From NCBI GenBank assembly GCA_026398735.1, contig JAPLSH010000015.1:1-64000 (forward strand): a stretch of DNA of 64,000 nt. The letters run 5' to 3'. A model generated the notes under the pieces. It saw only the letters and a program-made list of their open reading frames with translations. It was not told where the DNA came from and ran no database searches. This stretch comes from Pseudomonadota bacterium (GTDB taxonomy: Bacteria > Pseudomonadota > Gammaproteobacteria > Steroidobacterales > Steroidobacteraceae). Numbering within the stretch: position 1 is the stretch's first letter; every line of letters begins with the position of its first letter. Below are positions 34,840 to 61,910 of the stretch, piece after piece. The position numbers were made by a program, and so were the translations under genes.

Positions 34840-34947
34840 CGCTATAGAAGGTGATGCAGCACACAATGCTGTGCTCAAGTTATGCGTTAGTCGGCCGTTA
34901 CAAGACGACAGCCATTAGCCGCACGCGGCAAGGTTTCACCTTGCTCG

Positions 34948-34963
34948 TGTGACACAGTTCACG
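34948..34963. promoter_or_regulatory. Flagellar palindrome at flgB
   Basis: TGTGACACAGTTCACG, one of six related 16-bp sites. It starts 70 bases before the flgB -24 element, an upstream-activator position. Confidence 0.65.
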
Positions 34964-35017: not shown

Positions 35018-35033
35018 TGGCACAGCCCTTGCT
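35018..35033 (+). promoter_or_regulatory. Sigma-54 promoter of flgB operon
   Basis: TGGCAC-AGCCC-TTGCT, an exact match to the -24/-12 consensus, 39 bases before the flgB ATG. Confidence 0.9.
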
Positions 35034-35072: not shown

Positions 35073-35513
35073 GTGGCGATGGATCTCGATTCATACCTTG
35101 GTATTCATGCACAGGCACTGCAGGTGCGTGCGCGGCGTACTGAGTTGCTCGCGACCAATCTCGCCAATGCCGACACGCCTGGATACAAGGCGCGCGACAT
35201 TGACTTCAAGTCTGCGATTGCCGCGGCCATGGGTCCGGCCAATACGCCCTCGACACCGCTTGCTACCAACGCCCGCCACATCGGCATAGGCGGCTCGTCT
35301 GCTGCTGAATCTGCAGGTGCGCTGGGTGGCAAAGACTCACTCGAATCATTTTTGAAGTACCGCACACCGCTGGCTCCTTCACTCGATGGCAACACCGTCG
35401 ATGCGCAGCTGGAGCAGGCCGCGTTTGCCGACAACACCGTGCGCTACCAGGCAACCCTTCAGTTTCTGTCAGGGCGTTTCCGCAGCTTGATGACCGCGAT
35501 CACTGGCCAGTAA
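35073..35513 (+). CDS. flgB: Flagellar proximal rod protein FlgB
   Basis: First structural gene of the hook-basal-body operon. 146 residues with the flagellar rod-family N-terminus (ARRTELLATNLANADTPGYK) and a coiled C-terminus (NTVRYQATLQFLSGRFRSL) that packs in the axial structure. Exported by the flagellar type III apparatus without a cleaved signal. It follows a consensus sigma-54 promoter and precedes flgC by 19 bases. Confidence 0.96.
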   Translation: MAMDLDSYLGIHAQALQVRARRTELLATNLANADTPGYKARDIDFKSAIAAAMGPANTPSTPLATNARHIGIGGSSAAESAGALGGKDSLESFLKYRTPLAPSLDGNTVDAQLEQAAFADNTVRYQATLQFLSGRFRSLMTAITGQ

Positions 35514-42193: not shown

Positions 42194-44104
42194 ATGGCTG
42201 ACATGCTGAACTCTGGCGTATCCGGCTTGCTCGCGATGCAGCGCGCACTGGATGTGACCAGTCACAACATTGCCAATGCCTCCACTGCCGGCTACAGCCG
42301 CCAACGTGTGGACTTGGCTGCCGTGCTGCCAGCCGATTCCGGTGGTGGCGAGTTTGTCGGTCGGGGCGTCAACGTACTGGGTGTGCGTCGTTCATACGAC
42401 GAGCTGCTGGCCAATCAGCAGCGCTCAGCCGCAGGAAACTATTCACGGCTCGATACCTATGCCAGCCGCGCACAAACGCTCAGCAACCTGTTTGGCGATA
42501 GCGCGACGGGTCTCAGTGCCTCACTGCAGCGCTTTACCAATGCAGTGCAGGGTGTGGCCAATACGCCCACCTCGACGGCTGCACGTCAGGTGTTGCTCAG
42601 CGAAGCCGAAGGCCTCAAGCAGCGCTTGCAGACCTATGACAACCGGCTGCAGGAAATTTCTGTCGAGACCAACACCTCGATCAAGAACGAGGCTACGACG
42701 ATCAGCGATCTGGCGGCGCGCATTGCCACGCTGAATCAGCAGATCGTCAGTACGCAGAATCAGACCGGCCAGCAGCCTAGCGATTTGATGGATGCCCGCG
42801 ATCAACAGATCGACGAGCTCAGCCGGCACGTCAGCGTCAGCATTCAGTCGCAGGGTGATGGCACCTTGAACGTCTATATCGGTAAGGGTCAGCCGCTGGT
42901 TTTGGGCACTCGTGCTGCCAGCATCGTGGCTCAGTCAGACCGCTATGATGTGTCGCGTATGAGCTTGGTGTACAAGTCGGGCAGCACCTATACCAATCTG
43001 GGTGATACCAGCTCCAGCCTCGGTGACACACTCAGTGGCGGCAGCCTCGGTGGCTTGCTCGACTTTCGCACCGAGTTGCTGGACCCCGCGCGCAATCAGC
43101 TGGGTCAGGTCACCGTAGGCCTTACGTCAGTGGTCAATGCCCAACATCGCGAAGGCCAGGACTTGGCCGGCAATATGGGTGGAGACTTATTCTCGGTCGG
43201 TGGCGTGCGAGTACTGCCTGCCAGTTCCAATGCGGGTTCCGGCTCGGTCAGCATCAGCCGCACCAGTGCCTCTGTCCTGACGGCCAATGACTATGTGTTG
43301 CAATACACCGGCGGAGCTTGGGCACTGCGCCGGGCCGATACGGGCGTGGCCGTTGCGCTAACCGGAACTGGCACTGCTGCCGATCCGTTTCAGGCCGAGG
43401 GCTTGGCCTTTGTTGTGGGCGGTACGCCAGCTACTGGCGACAGTTACAAGCTGCAACCGACGGCCGGTGCGATCAGTGGTCTGCAGGTGCTGGTCACCGA
43501 TGCCACCAAGGTGGCTGCTGCTGCGCCCATTCGTTCATCGGTCGCTTTTGGCAACAAGGGCGGCGTAACCATTTCGGCCGGTGAGGTGCTTGATGCCACT
43601 GCGCCGCAGCTACGCGCTACGGTCAACATCGCCTTTACGTCATCGAACACTTACATGCTCAACGGCACAGGCTCCTACACGCTGCCAGCCAGCGGCATCA
43701 TCGCCGCCAATGGCTGGATGGTGCAGTTGTCGGGCACGCCTGCCGCAGGCGATGGCTTTGTCGTGCAGTCCAACACTGGCGGCACAGGCGATAACCGCAA
43801 CGCTCTGGAAATTGCCCGCATGCTCGACACCGGCGTGCTCACCGGTGGTACTGAATCGTTGACCGGCGCGGTCTCGCGCATGGTTGGCGCTGTAGGTGTG
43901 GCCACTAATCAGGCCCAGAACGGCCGGGATACTCAAAAACTGATTCTGGAGGACACCACCTCTGCTCGTGATGGCGTGCAGGGCGTGAATCTGGATGAGG
44001 AGGCCGCCAACATGATGCGCTTCCAGCAGGCCTATCAGGCCACTGCCCAGGTCATCAAGGCGACCCAAACCCTCTTCGACACCTTGCTGCAGGCGACACG
44101 CTGA
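42194..44104 (+). CDS. flgK: Hook-filament junction protein FlgK
   Basis: HAP1, first junction protein between hook and filament. 636 residues with the N-terminal MLNSGVSGLLAMQRALDVTS and NIANASTAGYSRQRVDL and the C-terminal NLDEEAANMMRFQQAYQAT. The middle domain is variable and Ser/Gly/Thr-rich. Its stop overlaps the flgL ATG (TGATG). FlgN is its presumed export chaperone. Confidence 0.95.
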   Translation: MADMLNSGVSGLLAMQRALDVTSHNIANASTAGYSRQRVDLAAVLPADSGGGEFVGRGVNVLGVRRSYDELLANQQRSAAGNYSRLDTYASRAQTLSNLFGDSATGLSASLQRFTNAVQGVANTPTSTAARQVLLSEAEGLKQRLQTYDNRLQEISVETNTSIKNEATTISDLAARIATLNQQIVSTQNQTGQQPSDLMDARDQQIDELSRHVSVSIQSQGDGTLNVYIGKGQPLVLGTRAASIVAQSDRYDVSRMSLVYKSGSTYTNLGDTSSSLGDTLSGGSLGGLLDFRTELLDPARNQLGQVTVGLTSVVNAQHREGQDLAGNMGGDLFSVGGVRVLPASSNAGSGSVSISRTSASVLTANDYVLQYTGGAWALRRADTGVAVALTGTGTAADPFQAEGLAFVVGGTPATGDSYKLQPTAGAISGLQVLVTDATKVAAAAPIRSSVAFGNKGGVTISAGEVLDATAPQLRATVNIAFTSSNTYMLNGTGSYTLPASGIIAANGWMVQLSGTPAAGDGFVVQSNTGGTGDNRNALEIARMLDTGVLTGGTESLTGAVSRMVGAVGVATNQAQNGRDTQKLILEDTTSARDGVQGVNLDEEAANMMRFQQAYQATAQVIKATQTLFDTLLQATR

Positions 44105-45300
44105 TGAGTTACCGAATCTCAACAGCTTCGTTCCACGGGGACACCGTCAATCGCATGCTCTCGCGGCAGGCGGATCTGTCTAAGACTCAGGAGCAGCTGG
44201 CCTCTGGTCAGCGCATTCAATCGCCAGCGGACGACCCGGTCGCTGCAACTCGCATCCTCGATATGGAGCGGCAGAGGTCCCAGCTCAATCAGTTCGGCAC
44301 CAATGCCGAGGTGCTCAATTCCCGTCTGACCCTCACCGAGCAGGCCTTTGCCGACGCCAACGGAGTGATCAACCGCATTCGCGAGATTACTTTGCAGGCC
44401 AGTGGTCCTTCGGTTGAGACCAGTGCCCGCAAAACGCTGGTCGCAGAACTGGACACGCGCAAACAAGAGCTGATGGATATTGCCAATCGCACAGACGCGA
44501 ATGGCGAATATCTGTTCTCTGGACTGTCGACCAAGACTCGGCCTTTTGCCGCGGTTGGAAGCCTCAACGGCTACTTCGGTGATCAGGGCGTTCGTGTGCT
44601 GCAGATCGGTACCGACCAGAAAATCGCTGATGGTTTCTCTGGCGAGAAAGTGTTTCGTAGCATTGCCCAAGGCAATGGCACGTTTGCAGTCGGTCAGGGA
44701 GTGCATGTTGGCACCAGTTCCATTGATGCAGGAGTGGTCGTGGACCCCTCTCTTTGGGTTGCTGGCAACTATTCGCTCAACTTCACCGCTAGCGACACCT
44801 GGCAAGTTGTTAACTCCGCCAACGCAGTAGTAGCCAGTGGCAGCTATAGCAGCGGGTCGGTCATCAGCTTCAACGGTGCGCAGGTCAAGGTCACTGGCAC
44901 ACCCGCTGCCGGTGACACCTACACGATCAGCCCAGCAAATACGCAAGACGTGTTCTCGTCGATCGACACCCTGCGCAACAGCTTGTCTGGTGCAGCAGAT
45001 ACGGCAGTCAGTCGTGCGGCGCTGACGACGACCTTGCAGCAGTCGCTGGTTCAGCTGGACAACGGTTTGGCCAATATTTCGTCACTGCGCGCCGAATTGG
45101 GCACGCGGATGTCGACTATCGCCACGACGCAGTCTGTGCGGCAAGCAGCTAGTGATGAACTCACCGGTGCTGTCGGCAAGCTTCGGGACGTGGATTACGC
45201 CGAAGCGGTCAGTCGCATGAACCAACAGATGCTCGGGCTGCAGGCGGCTCAATCGGCCTATAGCCGTATCGCTCAGCTTTCACTCTTTAATTATCTGTAA
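44104..45300 (+). CDS. flgL: Hook-filament junction protein FlgL
   Basis: HAP3, flagellin-like second junction protein. 398 residues: QADLSKTQEQLASGQRIQSP and ADDPVAATRILDMERQRSQL at the N-terminus, and the C-terminal LRDVDYAEAVSRMNQQMLGL with QAAQSAYSRIAQLSLFNYL. Last gene of the flgB-L series; the first flagellin follows after 143 bases. Confidence 0.95.
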   Translation: MSYRISTASFHGDTVNRMLSRQADLSKTQEQLASGQRIQSPADDPVAATRILDMERQRSQLNQFGTNAEVLNSRLTLTEQAFADANGVINRIREITLQASGPSVETSARKTLVAELDTRKQELMDIANRTDANGEYLFSGLSTKTRPFAAVGSLNGYFGDQGVRVLQIGTDQKIADGFSGEKVFRSIAQGNGTFAVGQGVHVGTSSIDAGVVVDPSLWVAGNYSLNFTASDTWQVVNSANAVVASGSYSSGSVISFNGAQVKVTGTPAAGDTYTISPANTQDVFSSIDTLRNSLSGAADTAVSRAALTTTLQQSLVQLDNGLANISSLRAELGTRMSTIATTQSVRQAASDELTGAVGKLRDVDYAEAVSRMNQQMLGLQAAQSAYSRIAQLSLFNYL

Positions 45301-45305
45301 GGCCA

Positions 45306-45321
45306 TGGCTATGACCTTGCA
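45306..45321 (+). promoter_or_regulatory. Sigma-54-like promoter before fliC1
   Basis: TGGCTA-TGACC-TTGCA: exact TTGCA at -12 and TGGC at -24, two mismatches. 123 bases before fliC1. No sigma-28 pair or palindrome is seen here, unlike at the other flagellin genes. Confidence 0.4.
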
Positions 45322-45443
45322 TACACCGATTCGCGAGGCGCTCTCACAGGCGCTGATCGAGACCCAGGCAGCCGATGGGTTGCCATTACAACCCACCGGC
45401 TAACACCGGATTTTAGATACAGCCTTAGAACTGGAGACTCACC

Positions 45444-46967
45444 ATGCCTCTTTACGTCAATACCAATACGACTGCGCTTAATGCACAGCGCAGTCTCACA
45501 TCGGCTAACACTTCTCTGCAGACAGCGCTCAAGCGGTTGTCGTCCGGTCAGCGCATCAACAGCGCCCAGGACGATGCAGCGGGCTTGGGAATTTCGGAGC
45601 GGATGACCACGCAGATCTCGGGCCTGAACCAGGCCGCACGCAATGCCCAGGACGCCATCTCGCTGTCCCAGGTGACCGAAGGTGCGCTGGGTGAAGTGAC
45701 AAAGAACCTGCAGCGCGTTCGCGAGCTGTCGGTGCAGTCGGCCAATGCCACCAACTCCTCCAGCGACCGCGCGGTGCTGGATCAGGAAGTTCAGCTGCGT
45801 CTTGCAGAAATTGACCGTATTGCTACCCAGACCAACTTCAACGGCCAGAAAGTGCTCGATGGCACCTTTGGTACCAGCACCTTCCAGGTCGGTGCCAATG
45901 CCGGCGAAACGATCGCCGTCAATCTGTCGACCAGCATCAAGACCAATTCATTGGGCAAGGTGTCTGACAGCGTGGGTGGCAGCACCTATAGCAGCGCACT
46001 GAATGTCGGCCAGCAAGGCGCAGCAGTAGATGCCACGACGATGGCCGCAGGCGATATGCGCATTGCCATTGGTGCCGGTTCGGCGGTGTCGATCTTGGGC
46101 TCGGCGGGCTATGCCGGTTCAGCAACCGGTCAGGGCGCAAGCAGCGGTTATGCCAAGGCTGCAGCGATCAATGCATCGGGCGTTGCCGGTTTGACCGCAA
46201 CGGCAGATACCAGCTCTCAATATGCCTATGTCGCCACCACGGGCGCCGGCTATACCCTGAGCATCAACGGCACGACCATTGTCAGTGCCGGTACCACCGC
46301 CCTTACCGGGTCGGATTGGGCAACGTTGGTCAACGGTTACACCGGCAGCACCGGCGTGACGGCCGCCTTTGACTCGGTCAACAATCGTATGACCCTGCAG
46401 GCCGCTGACGGCCGTGATATCGCTATCTCACAGACCGCGACGGTGGCGGGTGACGTTGCCAAGGGCCTCGGCGCTAAGGCAGGCACCAACAACAGCAGCA
46501 ATACGGCCACCGCGCTGACGGCTGCTGTGGGCACAGCGGTTGCGCTGACTGATCGTGCCTCGATCCGGCTGGCGTCGTCGAGTGCAGTCACGGTTAGTGG
46601 TACAACACCGGCTCGCATCGGCTATGCCGCGGGTACGCAGGCGTTGGGCTCCTCCACGCTGAGCGCCGGCTCTGTTACCACGCTGAGCAATGCAAACTCC
46701 ATGATCGGCATGGTCGATGCAGCATTGGAGCAAGTCTCGTCGGTGCGCGGTGGCCTGGGTGCGATTCAGAGTCGTATCGAGGCAACGATCTCGTCGATTC
46801 TGGTGAACTCAGAGAACCTGCAGTCGTCGCGCAGCCGCATCTTGGATACCGACTACGCAGCCGAGACGGCCAACTTGACCAAGGCGCAGGTGATGCAGCA
46901 GGCATCTACCGCCATTCTGAGTCAGGCCAACGCCGTGCCGCAGAGTGTGTTGTCGTTGCTCAAGTAA
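45444..46967 (+). CDS. fliC: Flagellin 1
   Basis: Filament subunit, 507 residues. Conserved D0/D1 ends: LYVNTNTTALNAQRSLTSAN, LSSGQRINSAQDDAAGLGIS at the N-terminus, and TDYAAETANLTKAQVMQQAS plus LSQANAVPQSVLSLLK at the C-terminus. The centre is Ala/Gly/Thr/Ser-rich with a flagellin IN-like segment (GVTAAFDSVNNRMTLQAADG). It differs from copies 2 and 3 at several D0/D1 positions and in promoter type. RBS TGGAG lies 8-12 bases upstream. Confidence 0.96.
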   Translation: MPLYVNTNTTALNAQRSLTSANTSLQTALKRLSSGQRINSAQDDAAGLGISERMTTQISGLNQAARNAQDAISLSQVTEGALGEVTKNLQRVRELSVQSANATNSSSDRAVLDQEVQLRLAEIDRIATQTNFNGQKVLDGTFGTSTFQVGANAGETIAVNLSTSIKTNSLGKVSDSVGGSTYSSALNVGQQGAAVDATTMAAGDMRIAIGAGSAVSILGSAGYAGSATGQGASSGYAKAAAINASGVAGLTATADTSSQYAYVATTGAGYTLSINGTTIVSAGTTALTGSDWATLVNGYTGSTGVTAAFDSVNNRMTLQAADGRDIAISQTATVAGDVAKGLGAKAGTNNSSNTATALTAAVGTAVALTDRASIRLASSSAVTVSGTTPARIGYAAGTQALGSSTLSAGSVTTLSNANSMIGMVDAALEQVSSVRGGLGAIQSRIEATISSILVNSENLQSSRSRILDTDYAAETANLTKAQVMQQASTAILSQANAVPQSVLSLLK

Positions 46968-46980
46968 CGCGACGGTCAGT

Positions 46981-47013
46981 TCCGCGACAGGTGGTTTTGC
47001 CGCCTGTCGCGGA
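46981..47013 (+). terminator. Hairpin after flagellin 1
   Basis: TCCGCGACAGG and CCTGTCGCGGA form an 11-bp perfect stem with an 11-base loop (TGGTTTTGCCG). No T-run follows; probable terminator or mRNA 3'-stabiliser. Confidence 0.6.
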
Positions 47014-47045
47014 GGCTGAAATAATTTCAGTGTTGTGGCGCGACC

Positions 47046-47061
47046 TGTGACGCAGATCACA
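47046..47061. promoter_or_regulatory. Flagellar palindrome at fliC2
   Basis: TGTGACGCAGATCACA, an exact TGTGA-N6-TCACA site, ending nine bases before the sigma-28 -35 box. Confidence 0.75.
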
Positions 47062-47070
47062 CTGAGGGTG

Positions 47071-47097
47071 CAAAGTTTTGCCGCCCCTTGCCGTTAG
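47071..47097 (+). promoter_or_regulatory. Sigma-28 promoter of fliC2
   Basis: CAAAGTTT (47071-47078), 11 bases, GCCGTTAG (47090-47097); 67 bases before the fliC2 start. Confidence 0.85.
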
Positions 47098-47116
47098 TTC
47101 TCCTGTGAGCTTCTGA

Positions 47117-47134
47117 GGAGACATTGCGGTCTCC
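47117..47134 (+). other. Leader hairpin of fliC2 mRNA
   Basis: GGAGAC-ATTGCG-GTCTCC, 6-bp perfect stem in the predicted 5' leader, with AGGAG at its 5' side and a second AGGAG at the ribosome site (about 47154). Such paired GGA motifs are typical of CsrA/RsmA targets. Confidence 0.35.
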
Positions 47135-47164
47135 CGGAAATATGAAAACCTCCAGGAGAATGTC

Positions 47165-48685
47165 GTGCCTCTTTATATCAATACCAACAGTGCGTCTTTG
47201 GGTGCCCAGCGCAGCCTGACGACCGCCAATAATGCTCTGCAGACTTCGTTGCAGCGCCTGTCTTCAGGCCAGCGCATCAACACCGCCAAGGACGATGCGG
47301 CCGGTATGGGTATCACCAATCGCATGACCACGCAGATCACCGGTCTGAACCAGGCTGCCCGTAATGCCGGCGACGGCATTTCGCTGGCGCAGGTCACAGA
47401 AGGTGCGCTGGGTGAAGTGACCAAAAACCTGCAGCGCGTACGCGAGCTGGCTGTTCAGTCTGCCAACGCCACCAACTCTGCCGGTGACCGCGCGGTGCTG
47501 GATCAGGAAGTGCAACTGCGCTTTGCAGAAATCGACCGTATTTCGTCGCAGACCAATTTTAATGGCCAGAAAGTGCTCGATGGCACCTTTGGCACTAGCA
47601 CCTTTCAGGTCGGCGCCAACGCCGGTGAGACCATTTCGGTGAACTTGTCGCAGAGCGTCAAGTCCAGCATATTGGGCAAGGTGTCGGACAGCGTCGGTGG
47701 CTCGGCGTATAACAGCGCGCTGAACATTGGCCAGCAGGGTACGGCAGTGGACGCCACCGTGATGACCGCTGGTGAAATGCGTATTGCGATTGGCACCGGC
47801 GCTGCAGTCTCTATTGCAGGCTCCGCCGCCTATGCTGGTGCCGCTACGGGCCAGGGTTCAGCCAGCGCCTATGCCAAGGCAGGTGCTGTCAACGCTTCGG
47901 GCGTCGGCTCGCTGACAGCCACAGCGGACACAACGTCTCAGTACGCCTATGTGGCGACCACAGGTGTCGGCTATACACTTGCCATCAACGGTCAGGCCAT
48001 TACCACTGCGGGTACCACGGCACTGTCGGGGTCAGACTGGGCCACCATGGTCAACGGCTATACCGGCAGCACCGGTGTGACGGCGACCTTCGATTCGGTC
48101 AACTCCCGCATGACAATGCAGGCGGCCGATGGGCGCGATATTGCTATCACTCAGCAGGCCACCGTAGCCGGTGACTCTGGTAAGGGCCTTGGGGCCAAAG
48201 CCGGCACCAACAACGCCACCAATACCACGTCCGCCGTAACAGTTGCTCTGGCGGCAACGAACGTCACCGACCGTGGTTCGATCCGTCTGACTTCATCCAG
48301 TGCGGTGACGGTCAGCGGCACGACGCCCGCTCGCATCGGCTATGCCGCTGCGACGCAGGCGCTGGGCACTAGCACGCTGTCGTCGAGCTCGGTGACCACA
48401 CTTGCCAATGCCAACTCGATGATTACCAGTGTCGATGCGGCTCTGGATCAAGTGTCGACCTTGCGTGGCCAGATGGGCGCCATCCAGAGTCGTATCGAAG
48501 CCACGATCTCGTCGATCTTGGTGAACTCGGAGAACCTGCAGTCTTCGCGCAGCCGCATCCTGGACACGGACTACGCGGCTGAGACGGCCAACCTGACTAA
48601 GGCGCAGGTGATGCAGCAGGCATCCACCGCGATCCTGAGCCAGGCCAATGCTGCTCCGCAGTCAGTGCTCTCGCTGCTGCGTTGA
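47165..48685 (+). CDS. fliC: Flagellin 2
   Basis: 506 residues from a GTG at 47165 with AGGAG seven bases upstream. N-terminus LYINTNSASLGAQRSLTTAN and LSSGQRINTAKDDAAGMGIT; C-terminus as in flagellin 1, ending SVLSLLR. It is nearly identical to flagellin 3 in the first 170 and last 130 residues, with more change in the centre. Has its own sigma-28 promoter and a terminator after it, so it is an independent unit. Confidence 0.96.
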   Translation: MPLYINTNSASLGAQRSLTTANNALQTSLQRLSSGQRINTAKDDAAGMGITNRMTTQITGLNQAARNAGDGISLAQVTEGALGEVTKNLQRVRELAVQSANATNSAGDRAVLDQEVQLRFAEIDRISSQTNFNGQKVLDGTFGTSTFQVGANAGETISVNLSQSVKSSILGKVSDSVGGSAYNSALNIGQQGTAVDATVMTAGEMRIAIGTGAAVSIAGSAAYAGAATGQGSASAYAKAGAVNASGVGSLTATADTTSQYAYVATTGVGYTLAINGQAITTAGTTALSGSDWATMVNGYTGSTGVTATFDSVNSRMTMQAADGRDIAITQQATVAGDSGKGLGAKAGTNNATNTTSAVTVALAATNVTDRGSIRLTSSSAVTVSGTTPARIGYAAATQALGTSTLSSSSVTTLANANSMITSVDAALDQVSTLRGQMGAIQSRIEATISSILVNSENLQSSRSRILDTDYAAETANLTKAQVMQQASTAILSQANAAPQSVLSLLR

Positions 48686-48715
48686 TAGCTGAGCTGGAGT
48701 TGATAAGGTGAAAAG

Positions 48716-48743
48716 CGGGGCTGCGTAAGCGGCCCCGTTTTTT
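48716..48743 (+). terminator. Intrinsic terminator after fliC2
   Basis: CGGGGC and GCCCCG arms (48716-48721, 48732-48737) followed by six T. Confidence 0.88.
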
Positions 48744-48768
48744 GCAGGGGAGCAGGTCAAAGCTAAAA

Positions 48769-48784
48769 CGTGATCTGCATCACA
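48769..48784. promoter_or_regulatory. Flagellar palindrome at fliC3
   Basis: CGTGATCTGCATCACA, the site in reverse orientation, ending nine bases before the proposed -35 box. Confidence 0.7.
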
Positions 48785-48793
48785 TGAGCAGTC

Positions 48794-48820
48794 TCAAGAA
48801 TGTTTGGTTGGTGCCGCTAC
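48794..48820 (+). promoter_or_regulatory. Sigma-28 promoter of fliC3
   Basis: TCAAGAAT, 11 bases, GCCGCTAC. It is weaker than the fliC2 promoter but has identical spacing to the palindrome. Confidence 0.65.
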
Positions 48821-48914
48821 ATAACCTGTACAGCAGTGTGGCGGCCTACGAACTTCGTGGCGCTATCGCCGCAGTTTAAACGTCACCAAGCTTTGTATAA
48901 TTCAGGAGTCCTCA

Positions 48915-50438
48915 ATGCCTCTTTATATCAACACCAACAGCTCGTCTCTGGGTGCCCAGCGCGCGCTGACCACTGCCAATAACACCTTGCAGACTTCGTT
49001 GCAGCGCCTGTCTTCGGGCCAGCGCATCAATACTGCCAAGGACGATGCGGCCGGCATGGGTATCACCAATCGCATGACCACGCAGATCACCGGTCTGAAC
49101 CAGGCTGCCCGCAACGCCGGCGACGGCATTTCGTTGGCACAGGTCACAGAAGGTGCGCTGGGTGAAGTCACCAAGAACTTGCAGCGCGTACGCGAGCTGG
49201 CTGTCCAGTCTGCCAACGCCACCAACTCTGCCGGCGATCGCGCGGTGCTGGATCAGGAAGTGCAGCTGCGCTTTGCAGAAATCGATCGTATCGCGACCCA
49301 GACCAACTTCAACGGCCAGAAAGTGCTCGACGGCACATTCGGCACCAGCACCTTCCAGGTCGGCGCCAACGCCGGCGAGACCATCTCGGTCAACCTGTCA
49401 CAGAGCGTCAAGTCCAGCGTGCTGGGCAAGGTGTCGGACAGCGTCGGTAACGTGGCGTACAACAGCGCACTCAACGTTGGCCAGCAGGGTGCGGCAGTAG
49501 ACGCCACCGCGATGGCCGCAGGCGATATGCGTATTGCCATTGGTACTGGCGCCGCCGTATCGATCACCGGCTCGGCGGCCTATGCTGGCGCCGCGACGGG
49601 CCAGGGCTCATCCAGCGCCTTCGCCAAGGCAGCGGCTATCAACGCCTCGGGCGTTGGTTCGCTGGCAGCGACGGCCGACACCACATCGGTCTATGCCTAT
49701 GCCGCTACGACGGGCGTCGGCTACACGCTGAGCATCAACGGTCAGGCCATAACCACTGCGGGCACTACTGCACTGTCGGGATCAGACTGGGCCACCATGG
49801 TCAACGGCTATACCGGCAGCACCGGTGTAACCGCAACTTTCGACTCGGTTAATAACCGCATGACCATGCAGGCTGTTGATGGTCGCGACATCGCGATATC
49901 CCAGACAGCCACGGTGGCCGGTGATGTTGGTAAAGGCCTCGGTCTAAAGGCAGGCACCAACAACAGCAGCAATACGGCTACGGCATTGACCACTGCTGTC
50001 AGCACGGCGGTTGCTTTGACCGATCGCGGTTCGATTCGTTTGACGTCATCCAGTGCAGTGACGGTCAGCGGCACGACGCCGCTTCGCATCGGCTACGCCG
50101 CCGCGACGCAGGCGCTGGGCACCAGCACGCTATCGTCAAGCTCGGTGACCACGCTGGCCAATGCCAACTCGATGATCACCAACGTCGATGCGGCGCTGGA
50201 TCAAGTGTCGAGCTTGCGTGGTCAGATGGGTGCGGTGCAAAGCCGTATCGAGGCCACGATCTCGTCGATCCTGGTGAACTCGGAGAATCTGCAGGCTTCA
50301 CGCAGCCGCATCCTGGACACCGACTACGCGGCCGAGACGGCCAACCTGACCAAGGCGCAGGTGATGCAGCAGGCATCCACTGCGATCCTGAGCCAGGCTA
50401 ACGCGGCTCCGCAGTCGGTACTGTCACTGCTGCGTTAA
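48915..50438 (+). CDS. fliC: Flagellin 3
   Basis: 507 residues from an ATG with CAGGAG nine bases upstream. N-terminus LYINTNSSSLGAQRALTTAN; C-terminus ends SVLSLLR. It shares most of its D0/D1 sequence with flagellin 2, while parts of its centre (GDVGKGLG, NNSSNTATALT) are closer to flagellin 1, suggesting exchange between copies. Predicted independent transcription from a sigma-28 promoter, with a strong terminator after it. Confidence 0.96.
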   Translation: MPLYINTNSSSLGAQRALTTANNTLQTSLQRLSSGQRINTAKDDAAGMGITNRMTTQITGLNQAARNAGDGISLAQVTEGALGEVTKNLQRVRELAVQSANATNSAGDRAVLDQEVQLRFAEIDRIATQTNFNGQKVLDGTFGTSTFQVGANAGETISVNLSQSVKSSVLGKVSDSVGNVAYNSALNVGQQGAAVDATAMAAGDMRIAIGTGAAVSITGSAAYAGAATGQGSSSAFAKAAAINASGVGSLAATADTTSVYAYAATTGVGYTLSINGQAITTAGTTALSGSDWATMVNGYTGSTGVTATFDSVNNRMTMQAVDGRDIAISQTATVAGDVGKGLGLKAGTNNSSNTATALTTAVSTAVALTDRGSIRLTSSSAVTVSGTTPLRIGYAAATQALGTSTLSSSSVTTLANANSMITNVDAALDQVSSLRGQMGAVQSRIEATISSILVNSENLQASRSRILDTDYAAETANLTKAQVMQQASTAILSQANAAPQSVLSLLR

Positions 50439-50465
50439 GTTAGATCGATCAGTTATGGTGAGGAC

Positions 50466-50501
50466 GGGTGGGGCTGTGTTAGCGGCCCCACCCATTTTTT
50501 T
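50466..50501 (+). terminator. Intrinsic terminator after fliC3
   Basis: GGGTGGGGC and GCCCCACCC, 9-bp perfect stem with a 10-base loop, then A and seven T. Confidence 0.93.
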
Positions 50502-50517
50502 GCCTGCTGGTCGTAAA

Positions 50518-50533
50518 TGTGATGCAGATCACA
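50518..50533. promoter_or_regulatory. Flagellar palindrome at flaG
   Basis: TGTGATGCAGATCACA, exact TGTGA-N6-TCACA, ending nine bases before the sigma-28 -35 box. Confidence 0.75.
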
Positions 50534-50542
50534 AACAGTGGC

Positions 50543-50569
50543 TAAAGCTTGCCCGCTTCTTGCCGTTAC
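50543..50569 (+). promoter_or_regulatory. Sigma-28 promoter of flaG-fliD
   Basis: TAAAGCTT, 11 bases, GCCGTTAC; 60 bases before the flaG start. Near consensus. Confidence 0.85.
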
Positions 50570-50629
50570 CGGTAGTGAGCCGTTCCGGGATGTTTTCTGG
50601 GACTGCCTCTAGAGTTGTGGGCGGGCCTT

Positions 50630-50968
50630 ATGGATATTCAGTTGTTGTCATCTTCACCAGCACTAGCGGTAACTGGCACCGGTGTGCCCGGTGTCGCCCC
50701 GCAAGGTGCAGAGACCACTGAGTTGAAGATTCCGGCATCTTCGCAGGAAGAGCCAGTAGCCGATGTTGCAGATTCGCTCAATTCGGCTGCACGCCTCAAC
50801 TCAACAGCGTTGGAATTCAGCGTAGACGAGGCAACTCAAAGCCAAGTAGTGATAGTGCGTGATGTCGAATCCGGAGAGGTCATCATGCAATATCCGTCCG
50901 AAGACGCATTGCGGATGATCCGCAATCTGGAGGCCGGGGTCGGCGGGCTGGTTGATAAGCTGATTTGA
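50630..50968 (+). CDS. flaG: FlaG family protein
   Basis: 112 residues from the ATG at 50630 (a GTG lies at 50615). Variable Ser/Thr/Ala N-terminal half, then the FlaG domain: ALEFSVDEATQSQVVIVRDV and SGEVIMQYPSEDALRMIRN. FlaG proteins affect filament length in Pseudomonas, Vibrio and Campylobacter by an unclear mechanism. Located between flagellins and fliD as in those genomes. Confidence 0.9.
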   Translation: MDIQLLSSSPALAVTGTGVPGVAPQGAETTELKIPASSQEEPVADVADSLNSAARLNSTALEFSVDEATQSQVVIVRDVESGEVIMQYPSEDALRMIRNLEAGVGGLVDKLI

Positions 50969-50983
50969 TGACACTGGCTATTT

Positions 50984-50999
50984 CGTGAGCTCTATCACG
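50984..50999. repeat. Palindrome upstream of fliD, different core
   Basis: CGTGA-GCTCTA-TCACG: perfect 5-bp arms with the same 6-base spacing as the flagellar palindromes, but lacking the GCAG core. No good sigma-28 or sigma-54 promoter follows before fliD at 51032. Confidence 0.35.
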
Positions 51000-51031
51000 C
51001 TGGCGCTAGACAGCTTTGGGATACTGCAGGC

Positions 51032-52429
51032 ATGGCTTCAACTCTTACAACAGGTGGGCTCGGCTCCGGCCTGGATGTCGCCGGCATGGTCGCCAAGCTG
51101 GTGGCGGCCGAGCGTGCGCCCGCTGATGCGCGCATCACTAAACTTGACAAGGCCAATACCAGTGACCTGACCGCGGTAAGCACCTTGCGCGGCGCCATGG
51201 CTACGTTTCAGGACAAGGCGACAGCACTCAAAGATTCGACGGCATTGGTGTTGCGAACGGCAACCAGTGCAAATACTGCGTTGTTTACGGCCACGGCAGA
51301 CAGTACTGCCAGTACGGGCTCGTATGATATTGAGGTTAAGAACCTGGCAGCCGCTGGAAAGTTCACGACCGTTTCTTTGGGCGCTACGACAGCCTCGGCC
51401 GTACAGACTGGCACGCTCGCAGTCACTCAAGGGTCTACCACTTTCAATGTCGTCATCAACTCCAGCAACAACACCTTGAGTGGCTTGCGGGATGCGATAA
51501 ATTCCTCTGCTTCAACAACCGGTGTCACTGCAAGTCTGTTGACTCTGGCCGATGGCGTACATCTGCAGCTCAATGGTGGGGCTACCGGCTCAGCCAATGC
51601 CCTGTCGATTGCGGCAAGCAATCCATCTGCTGCCGGCGATGTCAGCCTTGCTGCCTTGTTTAATTCTGCCCAGACGGTAGTGGCAGCCAACGCAAACATT
51701 ACGATTAATGGGCTTGCCGCAACGAGCGCCACAAACACATTCTCTGGGGCGATACAGGGGGTCACGGTGAACGTGGCGGGTGTGTCGACCGTCGGCAGCA
51801 CTACCGGTCTTGCTGTGGCTAACAACGATTCGGCGATAGCAGCAAAAGTCTCTGACTTTGTGAATGCCTATAACAATCTAATCACCACCATGGCTGGTCT
51901 GGGCGGATACAACGCCACCACCAAAACAGCGGGTGCGATGCTGGGCGACAGCATGATGCAGTCTATCCAGACGCAGGTCAGGCGCACTGCGACGATGGTC
52001 GTGTCTGGCGGTTCGTCTATTTACAACACCTTATCGGCCATTGGCGTTGTGCGTGACGATACAAACAAAGCGGACGTGACGGGCAAGCTCAAGGTAGATG
52101 CCACCAAGTTACAGGCAGCCCTGACTGCGGATTCACAGTCAGTATCCAAGGTGCTTGCGGGCTCTGGCGGAATAGCGACAGCGTTTGCTACTGCCTTGGA
52201 CAAACACACCGAGACAAAAACCGGCGTTGCGGATTTGGCGACGCGAGAGGCCGTCATCGCCGCGAGAACCAAAGACATTGCCAAGCAGAAAACTGCCCTT
52301 GAAGCGCGGATAGCAGACTATAAAGCGCGCCAGACAAAGATCTTTAATTCGTTGGATGGCATGTTGTCGAAGATGCAGACCACCTCGAGCCAACTGTCGC
52401 AGTCGCTTTCAAAGTCGACTTCCATCTAA
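51032..52429 (+). CDS. fliD: Filament cap FliD
   Basis: HAP2, the cap that folds flagellin at the filament tip. 465 residues, with the N-terminal TTGGLGSGLDVAGMVAKLVA and AERAPADARITKLDK, a Ser/Thr/Ala-rich middle, a flagellin hook IN-like segment (ANITINGLAATSATNTFSG) and a coiled C-terminus (LSKMQTTSSQLSQSLSK). Probably read from the flaG promoter. Precedes fliS, its neighbour in most genomes. Confidence 0.94.
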   Translation: MASTLTTGGLGSGLDVAGMVAKLVAAERAPADARITKLDKANTSDLTAVSTLRGAMATFQDKATALKDSTALVLRTATSANTALFTATADSTASTGSYDIEVKNLAAAGKFTTVSLGATTASAVQTGTLAVTQGSTTFNVVINSSNNTLSGLRDAINSSASTTGVTASLLTLADGVHLQLNGGATGSANALSIAASNPSAAGDVSLAALFNSAQTVVAANANITINGLAATSATNTFSGAIQGVTVNVAGVSTVGSTTGLAVANNDSAIAAKVSDFVNAYNNLITTMAGLGGYNATTKTAGAMLGDSMMQSIQTQVRRTATMVVSGGSSIYNTLSAIGVVRDDTNKADVTGKLKVDATKLQAALTADSQSVSKVLAGSGGIATAFATALDKHTETKTGVADLATREAVIAARTKDIAKQKTALEARIADYKARQTKIFNSLDGMLSKMQTTSSQLSQSLSKSTSI

Positions 52430-52455
52430 GACGCTTTCTGTTGCCTGACTTTCAC

Positions 52456-52482
52456 TAAAGTCCGCTCCGCTGCTGCCGTTAA
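52456..52482 (+). promoter_or_regulatory. Sigma-28 promoter of fliS
   Basis: TAAAGTCC, 11 bases, GCCGTTAA; 26 bases before the fliS ATG. Unlike the flagellin and flaG promoters, no palindrome precedes it. Confidence 0.8.
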
Positions 52483-52508
52483 CTACGCTGCAGCACAGGG
52501 AGTTTCAA

Positions 52509-52925
52509 ATGTTCGCAAGTTCGCCGTCCTCTAGCCTTAACGCCTACCGCCAGAATGCTGCTCACGGTGGTGTCGCCGCCGCCGATCCGCATCAGCTGGT
52601 AACCATGCTGTACGACGGTGCCATCGAACGGATCCAGCGTGCCCGCGGCGCCATGGCTGCAGGAGAGCGCCGGAGCGCCGCAGAGCTTATTTCCCGTTCC
52701 GTCGACATTGTCGAAGAGTTGCGGTGTGCTTTGCGGCCCCAAGAGGATGGTTCTATCGCCAACAACCTGGGCGATCTCTATGAGTACTGCGGCCGTCGTC
52801 TGCTGCTGGCCTCGCTGGGGCAAAAGGTAGAGCCGCTTGAAGAGGTAGCCGGTTTGCTGCGGCAACTGCGCAGTGCTTGGGTCAGCATTCAGCCCGTTGC
52901 TAAACAGCTGCGTACTGGCTCATGA
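52509..52925 (+). CDS. fliS: Flagellin export chaperone FliS
   Basis: 138 residues, four-helix chaperone that binds the flagellin C-terminus. It shows NAYRQNA near the start, the conserved AADPHQLVTMLYDGAIERIQ and, later, IANNLGDLYEYCGRRLLLAS. Overlaps the fliT-like gene by ATGA. Confidence 0.94.
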   Translation: MFASSPSSSLNAYRQNAAHGGVAAADPHQLVTMLYDGAIERIQRARGAMAAGERRSAAELISRSVDIVEELRCALRPQEDGSIANNLGDLYEYCGRRLLLASLGQKVEPLEEVAGLLRQLRSAWVSIQPVAKQLRTGS

Positions 52926-53182
52926 GTGCGGCGCTGCAATTGCAGCGCACCGCCTCGCAAAAACTCCTGACGCAGGGCGTTGTCGCCCTCACCGAGCAGA
53001 TGGCAAGATGCCTGCTCGATCGGGATCAGCGAGAGGTGCGGCGCATGATGGCCGACCGTCACCGCATGTTGCGGGATCTTGGTTTTAGCGTTCGGGATGA
53101 CGACGCGCTGGGGTGTCTGGCGGCAATGACCGCTGCAGTCAACGAGTCCGACATGGCGCTTGAGGCGCTGCTGCGGCCCTGA
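52922..53182 (+). CDS. FliT-like small flagellar protein
   Basis: 86 residues, helical (VALTEQMARCLLDRDQREVR; MTAAVNESDMALEALLRP). Position directly after fliS and the overlapping start are those of fliT, the FliD export chaperone, but sequence similarity is too weak to prove it. It is followed by the PilZ-type gene 20 bases later. Confidence 0.65.
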   Translation: MSAALQLQRTASQKLLTQGVVALTEQMARCLLDRDQREVRRMMADRHRMLRDLGFSVRDDDALGCLAAMTAAVNESDMALEALLRP

Positions 53183-53777: not shown

Positions 53778-53887
53778 TTCGCGAACCACGTCACAGGTGG
53801 CTGCTGCTGAGTTCGGCAATGCGTCACTTTCTCGACGCTCCCATAACCTGACAATCACTGCTCTTCAAAGAGGTGGTGTCAGGACTC

Positions 53888-55022
53888 ATGGCAACGATTG
53901 AAAGCGAAGTGTTTAGCGGTCCGGTTTTGCGTGCGCCTGTCGTGGCCAGCATGCCCACGGGCAGGTCTCGCGCCATTCGTGATGTCTTGACCCTTATTGA
54001 CCAAGTCGCGGCTCACGAGTCCAGTGTATTGGTGCTGGGAGAATCTGGCACGGGCAAAGAAGTGGTTGCTCGTGCGATCCATGAGGCAAGCCCGCGTCGT
54101 AGCCGGCCGTTCATTGCCGTCAATTGCGGCGCAATTCCTGCTGACCTACTCGAGTCTGAGCTCTTTGGCCATGAAAAAGGCGCCTTTACAGGTGCCGTGG
54201 CCACGCGTAAGGGCCGCTTTGAGCTGGCTGAGGGTGGCACGCTGTTTCTAGACGAAATTGGCGACATGAGCCTACCCATGCAGGTGAAGCTGCTTCGCGT
54301 GCTGCAGGAGCGGGTATTTGAACGCGTGGGCAGCGCACTGCAGTTTCGCTGCAATGTGCGCATCATTGCCGCCACTCACCGCAATCTAGAAGAGGCGATC
54401 ACCCGTGGCGGTTTTCGCGAAGATCTTTTCTATCGCCTCAATGTCTTTCCTATCGATATGCCTCCTTTGCGTGGCCGATTGGAAGACTTGCCTGTTTTAG
54501 TCAATGATTTCGCAATCTATAACGACGCTGCAGTGTTTGGCTGACTATCCCTGGCCTGGCAATGTGCGCGAGTTGGCTAATCTGATCGAGCGGCTGTCCA
54601 TTCTGTGTGGCTCGCGTCCAGTGACAATCGGTGACTTGCCGCCGCGTTACCGACCCAAAGACTGGGTGCCGCCGTTGTTTCAGGAGCTTGCGCTTGAGTC
54701 ATTGCAGGAACCAACGCGGTTTAACGACAGCTACGACTACGACAGCGTCGGGCTCAACGAGCGCGAAGCGCTGTTGATTCTCGAGCAGGACCTGCGTTTG
54801 CCGGTTGCTGACCTTGCAACGCTGCCCGAAATGGGCCTCGACTTGCGTATCCACATTGCTGCTATTGAAGAACAGCTCATTCGACAATCGCTGGATCGTA
54901 CGGCAGGGGTGGTTGCACAAGCTGCACGGCTTTTAGGCTTGCGCCGGACGACACTGGTTGAAAAGTTACGCAAATACGGCATCAGCGGCATCAGCGGCAT
55001 AGACGAGGTGACGGAGGATTGA
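53888..55022 (+). pseudogene. fleQ: FleQ master regulator remnant: no N-terminal domain, frameshift
   Basis: Sigma-54 activator of flagellar genes, damaged. From the ATG at 53888 one frame gives Walker A ([14 protein letters not shown]), the sigma-54 contact GAFTGA, Walker B ([12 protein letters not shown]) and the Arg-finger segment [18 protein letters not shown], then stops at 54544. Another frame (about 54520-55022) gives YPWPGNVRELANLIERLSI and the FleQ helix-turn-helix QAARLLGLRRTTLVEKLRKY. Between VLVND and the second part, roughly 13 conserved residues are missing, consistent with a 38 or 41 base deletion. The N-terminal REC-like domain of about 120 residues is also absent, with no room upstream. 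Without recoding, the product has no DNA-binding domain. Confidence 0.85.
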
Positions 55023-55040: not shown

Positions 55041-55056
55041 TGTGAACTGCATCACA
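55041..55056. promoter_or_regulatory. Flagellar palindrome at flrC
   Basis: TGTGAACTGCATCACA, reverse orientation of the six-site motif. It starts 34 bases before the -24 element, closer than at flgB and fliL. Confidence 0.7.
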
Positions 55057-55117: not shown

Positions 55118-56128
55118 GTGGATGAACCCATGACTGATGCATTGAATGTGATTGCCTTCGACCGCGAGCCGGTGGTCGTTGCAGACAATTCCCGCGCACT
55201 CTATGAAGTTGCCCGCCGTGTTGCGGCCACTGATTGCACGGTGATGATTTCTGGTGAGTCGGGGACAGGCAAGGAAGTCCTTGCCCGGTATATCCACAAC
55301 CAGTCCAAGCGAGCCACAGGCGATTTTGTCGCCATTAACTGTGCCGCTATTCCAGAGAACATGCTTGAAGCACTGCTGTTCGGTTACGAGCGCGGGGCCT
55401 TTACCGGGGCTGCCAATGCCCATCCCGGCAAGTTTGAGCAGGCACAGGGTGGCACGTTGCTACTCGATGAAATCACCGAGATGCCCTTGTCGTTGCAAGC
55501 CAAGCTGCTTCGCGTATTGCAGGAGCGCGAAGTAGAGCGCATCGGCGGTCGGGGCCCTATCGCGTTGGATGTGCGTGTCATCGCCACCACCAATCGCAAC
55601 TTGCGCACCGAAGTGCTGGGTGGTCGATTCCGCGAAGATCTGTTTTATCGCCTTTGCGTGTTCCCGTTGGCGATACCGCCATTGCGCGAGCGTCGTGATG
55701 ACGTGCTGCCGTTGGCAATGCAGTTGCTGGCATCGCGCTGCCCACCCGGAAAGGCAGTGCCGGCGCTCAGTGCCGATGCGGCGCACTTGTTGCTGCTGTA
55801 TCCCTGGCCGGGTAATGCCCGGGAGCTGGACAACTTGCTGCAGCGTGCGTTGATTCTTGCTACCGGCGCTGTGCTGGGTCCGGAACATATACGCTTTGAG
55901 TCGGTGCTTGGGAGTGCGACAGGCGCGCCGCCCGGCGACGATCCAATGGGAGCGGGTGCCGCATTGAAAGGGTCGCTGCGACATACGGAGCGGGACTTGA
56001 TTCTGGATGCGCTAGGTAGTGGTGCGACGCGCAACGAGGCTGCAGAGCGGTTGGGCATCAGTCCGCGGACGCTGCGCTACAAATTAGCTCGTTTGCGTGC
56101 CGACGGCGTTGCAGTTCCTGTCGCCTGA
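55118..56128 (+). CDS. Sigma-54 activator, FlrC/FleR-like without receiver domain
   Basis: 336 residues from a GTG at 55118 (an ATG lies at 55130). Intact AAA+ core: [50 protein letters not shown] and [18 protein letters not shown]. The C-terminal helix-turn-helix [18 protein letters not shown] is of the FlrC/FleR type. The N-terminus is only about 20 residues where FlrC and FleR carry a phosphorylatable receiver, and no FlrB/FleS kinase gene adjoins it. It may be constitutively active or controlled by another protein. It heads the fliE-fliK series and is probably the only working flagellar activator in the window. Confidence 0.85.
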
Positions 56129-61820: not shown

Positions 61821-61836
61821 TGTGACGCAGTTCACA
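61821..61836. promoter_or_regulatory. Flagellar palindrome at fliL
   Basis: TGTGACGCAGTTCACA, exact TGTGA-N6-TCACA, starting 74 bases before the -24 element. Confidence 0.75.
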
Positions 61837-61894: not shown

Positions 61895-61910
61895 TGGCAC
61901 AAGGTTTGCT
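61895..61910 (+). promoter_or_regulatory. Sigma-54 promoter of fliL operon
   Basis: TGGCAC-AAGGT-TTGCT, an exact consensus match, 55 bases before the fliL ATG. Confidence 0.9.

Follow-up and report, generated by a model that had tools for sequence, protein, structure and literature searches.

Why do several late flagellar promoters of one bacterium carry the same palindrome at the same distance from the -35 box? The question is raised by a stretch of 64,000 nucleotides, hereafter the window, from a member of the Steroidobacteraceae (GenBank assembly GCA_026398735.1, contig JAPLSH010000015.1, positions 1 to 64,000 of the forward strand). Its filament region (44104-52925) holds a flagellin-like gene taken as flgL, the flagellin genes fliC1 to fliC3, and flaG, fliD and fliS. 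An original prediction, made from the sequence, had proposed that exactly nine bases separate a palindrome from the sigma-28 -35 box at fliC2, fliC3 and flaG, and that this constant position implies a second, direct input into late flagellar genes. We report here that the spacing is exact at all three promoters and that the palindrome is likely a site for CRP, placed at the distance from which CRP activates two sigma-28 promoters of Escherichia coli.

Results

Promoter layout at fliC2, fliC3 and flaG

The three promoters are built alike: a palindrome of 16 bp is separated by 9 bp from an 8-bp -35 box, which in turn stands 11 bp ahead of a -10 box of 8 bp. The palindrome has the form TGTGA-N6-TCACA, with a single mismatch at fliC3. 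At fliC2, the putative CRP-type site TGTGACGCAGATCACA (47046..47061; 10/10 consensus positions) precedes the sigma-28 promoter CAAAGTTT-N11-GCCGTTAG (47071..47097) and the gene of a flagellin of 506 amino acids (47165..48685; PF00669). The same arrangement is found at fliC3, with the putative site CGTGATCTGCATCACA (48769..48784; 9/10), the promoter TCAAGAAT-N11-GCCGCTAC (48794..48820) and a gene for a flagellin of 507 amino acids recognised by profile match (48915..50438), and at flaG, with the putative site TGTGATGCAGATCACA (50518..50533; 10/10), the promoter TAAAGCTT-N11-GCCGTTAC (50543..50569) and a PF03646 gene whose longest open reading frame spans 50615..50968 (ATG at 50630). All these features lie on the + strand, the promoters being assigned by sequence pattern, and the sites of fliC2 and flaG are identical in the congener G002. 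Between fliC3 and the flaG promoter, a hairpin resembling an intrinsic terminator (50466..50493, + strand) has 12 pairs and a T-run; terminator-like sites are no more numerous in 44000-53000 than in shuffled sequences.

The consensus for CRP quoted in the sections of Hollands et al. (2009; PMC2859248) on which we draw throughout has TGTGA-N6-TCACA as its core, and this match makes the palindrome a likely operator for the CRP of the host. Since a CRP-type site is a symmetric dimer site, the direction of its six inner bases should not matter. An FNR-type site, the consensus of which is TTGAT-N4-ATCAA, was ruled out, the half-sites at the three promoters reading TGTGA and TCACA, with one CGTGA.

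According to Hollands et al. (PMC2859248), the E. coli promoters aer and trg are CRP-activated sigma-28 promoters with CRP at -49.5, as tested experimentally, and aer starts 6 bp downstream of its -10 octamer. From this start and this centre, the gap from the 16-bp core to the -35 octamer works out at exactly 9 bp. Indeed, the E. coli sequence of aer has the core TGCGATCTAAATCAAA, 9 bp and TAAAGATA, and that of trg, for which a spacing identical to aer is stated (PMC2859248), has TGTGACGCAAAGAGGT, 9 bp and TAAGTAAT, in a register that rests on the left half-site; the very poor right half-site of trg explains why our pattern search did not return it. When starts in the window are placed as at aer, 6 bp past the -10 octamer, the palindrome centre falls at -49.5 at all three promoters. 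CRP activation was lost when the aer site was moved to -41.5, -44.5 or -54.5, and the activity remaining with the site at -61.5 was no longer sigma-28-dependent (PMC2859248). Since the window sites occupy the aer/trg position, their promoters have a position with experimental support.

Co-occurrence of the palindrome and the sigma-28 boxes

Searching the whole genome for GTGA-N6-TCAC followed after 0-30 bases by AAG-N14-GCCG returned three places, namely the fliC2, fliC3 and flaG promoters, all with a 9-bp gap, against one place for the reversed-pattern control. By itself, AAG-N14-GCCGNTA occurs at 38 places (control, 56), six of them within the window; as this pattern is not special genome-wide, the signal rests in its co-occurrence with the palindrome. 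Scored out of ten in register at 9 bp, the six window sites give 10, 9 and 10 for fliC2, fliC3 and flaG, 8 for the site at 34875-34901, 5 for flgM and 2 for fliS. A palindrome of at least 9/10 in a fixed register at three of six promoters has P ~2e-11, rising to 5e-7 once any of the 31 spacings may count, with the promoters taken as independent and a background rate that counts the sites themselves. Palindromes with at most one mismatch number six in the window for 2.1 expected, a count reached by 3 of 100 shuffles. By a hand-made gene list, all six are non-coding, in a region (33111-62499) that is 6.1% non-coding. On another contig, a fourth flagellin gene (fliC4, C13:285618) also has an 8/10 palindrome exactly 9 bp upstream of a sigma-28-like site; among the flgM, 34875, fliS and fliC4 promoters, a score of at least 8 in two of four has P ~6e-7, the four having been picked afterwards.

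The original prediction had further held that fliS and flgM lack the site, which their in-register scores bear out, and that the filament genes are thereby singled out. The latter view is right with respect to these two genes, but fliC1 (45444) has no palindrome/sigma-28 pair and no sigma-28 match in our scan, and the site before flgB is weaker but in register. A TGGC-N7-TTGCA match at 45306 was considered for fliC1; sigma-54 control is not claimed, since its TGGC is not kept in the congener L013.

CRP, FliA and cyclase genes

PF00325 has one match in the genome. This CRP candidate scores 310.9 against the NCBIfam CRP equivalog (cut-off, 266) and aligns over ~200 residues with E. coli CRP and Vfr, with SREMAGR opposite the SRETVGR of E. 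coli. Its AMTHPEGMQIK aligns with E. coli AMTHPDGMQIK, a segment that we take to be the activating region 1 (AR1) loop of CRP. The genome also encodes one class III cyclase domain (PF00211), and no match to a class I adenylate cyclase was found in it. FliA passes its cut-off (279.7 vs 201); its gene is found on this contig past the end of the window, after genes that are flhF-like and flhG-like by position and sequence start.

Recurrence in congeners and other genomes

Among the congeners, all three sites are present in G002 (contig C47), at coordinates equal to those of three matches of G060, the genome of L013. At fliC3 of G002, GTGAT and ATCAC are kept and 4 of 9 linker bases are changed, the linker length being unchanged. 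G001 carries the site and the spacing at its flagellin gene, downstream of which lie flaG-like and fliD-like genes. G006 and G008 yielded no flagellin above the cut-off, and this comparison of flagellin promoters leaves out G003 and G005.

A stricter pattern, ending in GCCGNTA, was searched in three overlapping draws of genomes (369 from the class, 200 from the family and 396 from the order), each of which includes our own genome. Outside the genus it matched 13, 15 and 34 times, respectively, against 6, 1 and 8 for the reversed control (tallied by eye). Among the 47 matches outside the genus, the spacing is 9 bp in ten and 10 bp in eight, with at most five at any other value. The 9-bp excess (10/47) has P ~2e-6 or, with relatives collapsed by hand (9/38), P ~3e-6, uniform spacing being assumed; 9 and 10 bp combined account for 18 of 47, the 10-bp class having been added after the fact. 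Eight of these 18 matches precede Pfam-confirmed flagellin genes of other families, at 9 bp in G076, G714 and G693 and at 10 bp in G669, G712, G684, G706 and G043, and the geometry is found at flagellins of families f8 (10 bp), f15 (9 and 10 bp) and f18 (9 bp). The non-flagellin genes comprise one methyl-accepting chemotaxis protein (MCP), two CHASE8-HAMP sensor kinases of one genus, one DUF1631 gene and two regulator-propeller genes. G490 has a weak dCache match (31.6, below the Pfam curated cut-off of 45), G161 and G436 have no recognised gene, and a match of G706 (C82) is cut by the contig end. Besides, Luteibacter rhizovicinus (L136, outside the count of 47) has the 9-bp arrangement before an MCP gene.

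Wider spacings are seen as well. Before motA, a CRP-like site stands upstream of sigma-28-like boxes at a gap of 22 bp in genus g13 (tested in L164; L165 and L166 have similar sequences) and of 12 bp in G503 (L158), both of the same family, and the gap is 11 bp ahead of a flagellin gene in G145; further CRP/sigma-28 spacings may exist. Three loci with a spacing of 3 (L154-L156) are flgM-like by eye; the Pfam run, made on a different open reading frame of L154, returned no family.

Other flagellar promoters of the genome

Other sites of the window, all on the + strand, accompany middle flagellar genes. The gene at 35073 has a Flg_bb_rod domain and is named flgB from gene order. Ahead of it, the flgA-flgB intergenic region holds a weak CRP-like site, GGTGATGCAGCACACA (34850-34865; 8/10 consensus), with the sigma-28-like TCAAGTTA-N11-GCCGTTAC (34875-34901) 9 bp downstream, and then the CRP-type palindrome TGTGACACAGTTCACG (34948..34963; 9/10); an exact sigma-54-type motif (35018-35033) lies between TGTGACACAGTTCACG and the gene. 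Upstream of fliL, the CRP-type palindrome TGTGACGCAGTTCACA (61821..61836; pattern match) is followed by an exact sigma-54-type motif at 61895-61910, and the distance from palindrome to sigma-54-type motif differs between flgB and fliL. A further CRP-type palindrome, TGTGAACTGCATCACA (55041..55056; pattern match), stands upstream of a sigma-54-activator gene (55118-56128), before which a less exact sigma-54 motif was read by eye; its counterpart in G002, TGTGACCTGCGTCACA, keeps both half-sites, with 2 of 6 central bases changed. The TGGC-N7-TTGCA type of motif is mildly enriched in the window (7 vs 3.1 expected; 3 of 100 shuffles reach 7). CRP may act on middle flagellar genes too.

Just upstream of fliD (50980-51003), a CRP-like palindrome reads CGTGAGCTCTATCACG in the window and is weaker than the 9/10 one of G002 (L246); no sigma-28 boxes were seen in register with it. 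Another sigma-54-activator gene, FleQ-like (53873-55022), is in two frames through a short deletion near 54500, the G002 copy being uninterrupted, and reflects either a real mutation or a draft-assembly error. Finally, our genome has four further flagellin-domain genes (L005-L008, contigs C29 and C31), which perhaps belong to a second flagellar system. The check for an in-register site at flagellins outside the window covered fliC4 and L008 (L005-L007 left out), and L008 has a poor sigma-28-like match without palindrome.

Discussion

Direct co-activation of the sigma-28 transcription of filament genes by CRP bound to cyclic AMP (cAMP) is the reading that we consider likely, from the sequence and from the analogy with aer and trg. 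cAMP-bound CRP would sit centred 49.5 bp upstream of the start site, touch the alpha C-terminal domains of the RNA polymerase carrying FliA (sigma-28) and recruit this polymerase to the fliC2, fliC3 and flaG promoters. Hook completion leads to FlgM export and hence to FliA release. The filament genes would therefore form an AND gate, firing only when FliA is released (hook finished, FlgM exported) and cAMP is high, as a measure of energy or carbon status. Flagellin is a very costly flagellar protein and, given a CRP-type site at the activating distance of E. coli, the bacterium probably makes the costly filament only with both signals present. The consensus match, the exact geometry, the presence of genes for CRP, FliA and a cyclase domain, and the recurrence at flagellin genes are read from the sequence. 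Binding by CRP, activation rather than repression, the contact between AR1 and the alpha C-terminal domain, cAMP as ligand and the AND logic are borrowed from aer and trg.

Several observations weigh against this reading. The -35 box of fliC3, TCAAGAAT, is weak. At 18.5 bp upstream of the site centre, where the DNA of aer is AT-rich (PMC2859248), A/T bases amount to 3/7, 4/7 and 2/7 at the window promoters, so that this DNA is not markedly AT-rich. The linkers of fliC2 and flaG are identical at 10 of 20 positions, and the constancy of spacing may partly reflect paralogy. The search for CRP/FNR regulators used PF00325 only, other types such as PF13545 falling outside it. In the congeners G004 and G007, flagellin genes have sigma-28-like promoters but no site in register, and the distribution of the trait in the genus is patchy. 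By our scoring, 36 of 78 flagellin loci carry a sigma-28-like promoter, and the congener L013 is the only one with a site of at least 8/10 at 9 bp; two Methylophaga loci have a site at 20 bp. In the same vein, a looser pattern, without NTA, placed in 60 relatives only 2 of 44 matches outside the genus at 9 bp, with 5 at 10 bp, 6 at spacing 16 and 16 matches for the reversed control; in 15 hand-chosen genomes, it placed one of 12 at 9 bp. The matches of the looser pattern are mostly background. Finally, 9 bp is not the sole arrangement, as seen from the peak at 10 bp and from the spacings of 12 and 22 at motA.

CRP could alternatively bind and repress, or answer to another ligand such as cyclic di-GMP, as Clp reportedly does. 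Cyclic di-GMP often lowers motility genes, and a Clp-type protein, 3iwz ('Catabolite activation-like protein'), presumably the Clp of Xanthomonas, is among the matches of our CRP candidate. We nevertheless regard this possibility as unlikely, since the candidate is much closer to CRP and Vfr (~1.6e-74) than to 3iwz (8.5e-59), exceeds the CRP equivalog cut-off, and would act from a site that is clear of the -35 and -10 boxes, at a position shown to activate sigma-28 polymerase (PMC2859248). Descent alone, with promoters copied along with their genes during flagellin duplication, might also have produced a constant spacing. The tandem flagellin paralogs, the fliC2/flaG linker agreement and the resemblance of the GGGGCTG...GCGGCCCC sequences that follow fliC2 and fliC3 fit such a history. 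However, the fliC3 linkers match those of fliC2 at only 4 of 20 positions and those of flaG at 7 of 20, the G002 fliC3 linker has changed in bases and not in length, and the geometry is also present at a distinct flagellin of G001 and in families f8, f15 and f18. We thus find descent quite unlikely as a full explanation, and it would account for the origin of the spacing, not for its maintenance.

That the palindromes serve sigma-70 or sigma-54 promoters, the sigma-28-like boxes being coincidental, is very unlikely. Window palindromes at 34948 and 61821 do stand upstream of sigma-54-type motifs, but no exact motif of this kind is near the fliC2, fliC3 and flaG sites. A single sigma-70-like site was found in 44000-53000 (46997-47025, upstream of the fliC2 palindrome), fewer than shuffles give, and the spacing to the sigma-28 boxes is exact. 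As for chance, CRP half-sites are short and the six-site count of the window is only mildly unusual; the joint statistics of spacing and position, together with the recurrence in other genomes, make a chance origin scarcely credible.

If co-activation by cAMP-CRP is true, a global nutrient signal acts directly on the filament genes, and the spacing rule offers an easy prediction of CRP/sigma-28 promoters. We would go further only with reserve. That CRP with sigma-28 forms a recurrent, repeatedly evolved flagellin promoter class throughout the bacterial class of this organism, probably the Gammaproteobacteria, and that carbon state sets filament composition, with fliC1 as constitutive core and fliC2, fliC3, fliC4 and FlaG added only at high cAMP, is possible and rather doubtful. 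The usual account of how late flagellar genes are controlled, given also by Hollands et al. (PMC2859248), invokes FlgM and sigma-28. The original prediction had the premise that sigma-28 promoters mostly work without an activator; as a generalisation this is fair, with an exception published in 2009 (PMC2859248). Its second direct input at these promoters finds support in the sequence and can be named as CRP, for which aer and trg provide a tested precedent (PMC2859248).

Comparison with known systems

The window promoters share with aer and trg the CRP-type site, the 9 bp, the sigma-28 -35 octamer, the 11 bp and the -10 octamer. They differ in their targets, which are flagellins and flaG in the window, whereas in E. 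coli they are the genes of an aerotaxis sensor and of a chemoreceptor, and the CRP sites there are poorer (PMC2859248). In the cited sections, an E. coli fliC/fliD fragment gave no clear CRP binding (Hollands et al., PMC2859248), and we found no report in the open-access literature of a flagellin sigma-28 promoter with CRP at -49.5. The control of flhDC by CRP, in E. coli and in Proteus mirabilis (PMC5544767), likewise links nutrient state to flagella through cAMP-CRP, but according to the portions of that work used here binding was shown at the master operon, whereas the window sites are at late genes. Class I and Class II CRP promoters use the same activator and the same site with sigma-70, at centres of -61.5 and -41.5; this type was ruled out, the window centres being at -49.5 with sigma-28 elements. 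What the window appears to add, as read from its sequence, is a new and recurrent class of target genes for a known promoter geometry. Since this geometry is found at flagellin promoters of other families in the same class, it may be a general promoter class and not an E. coli curiosity.

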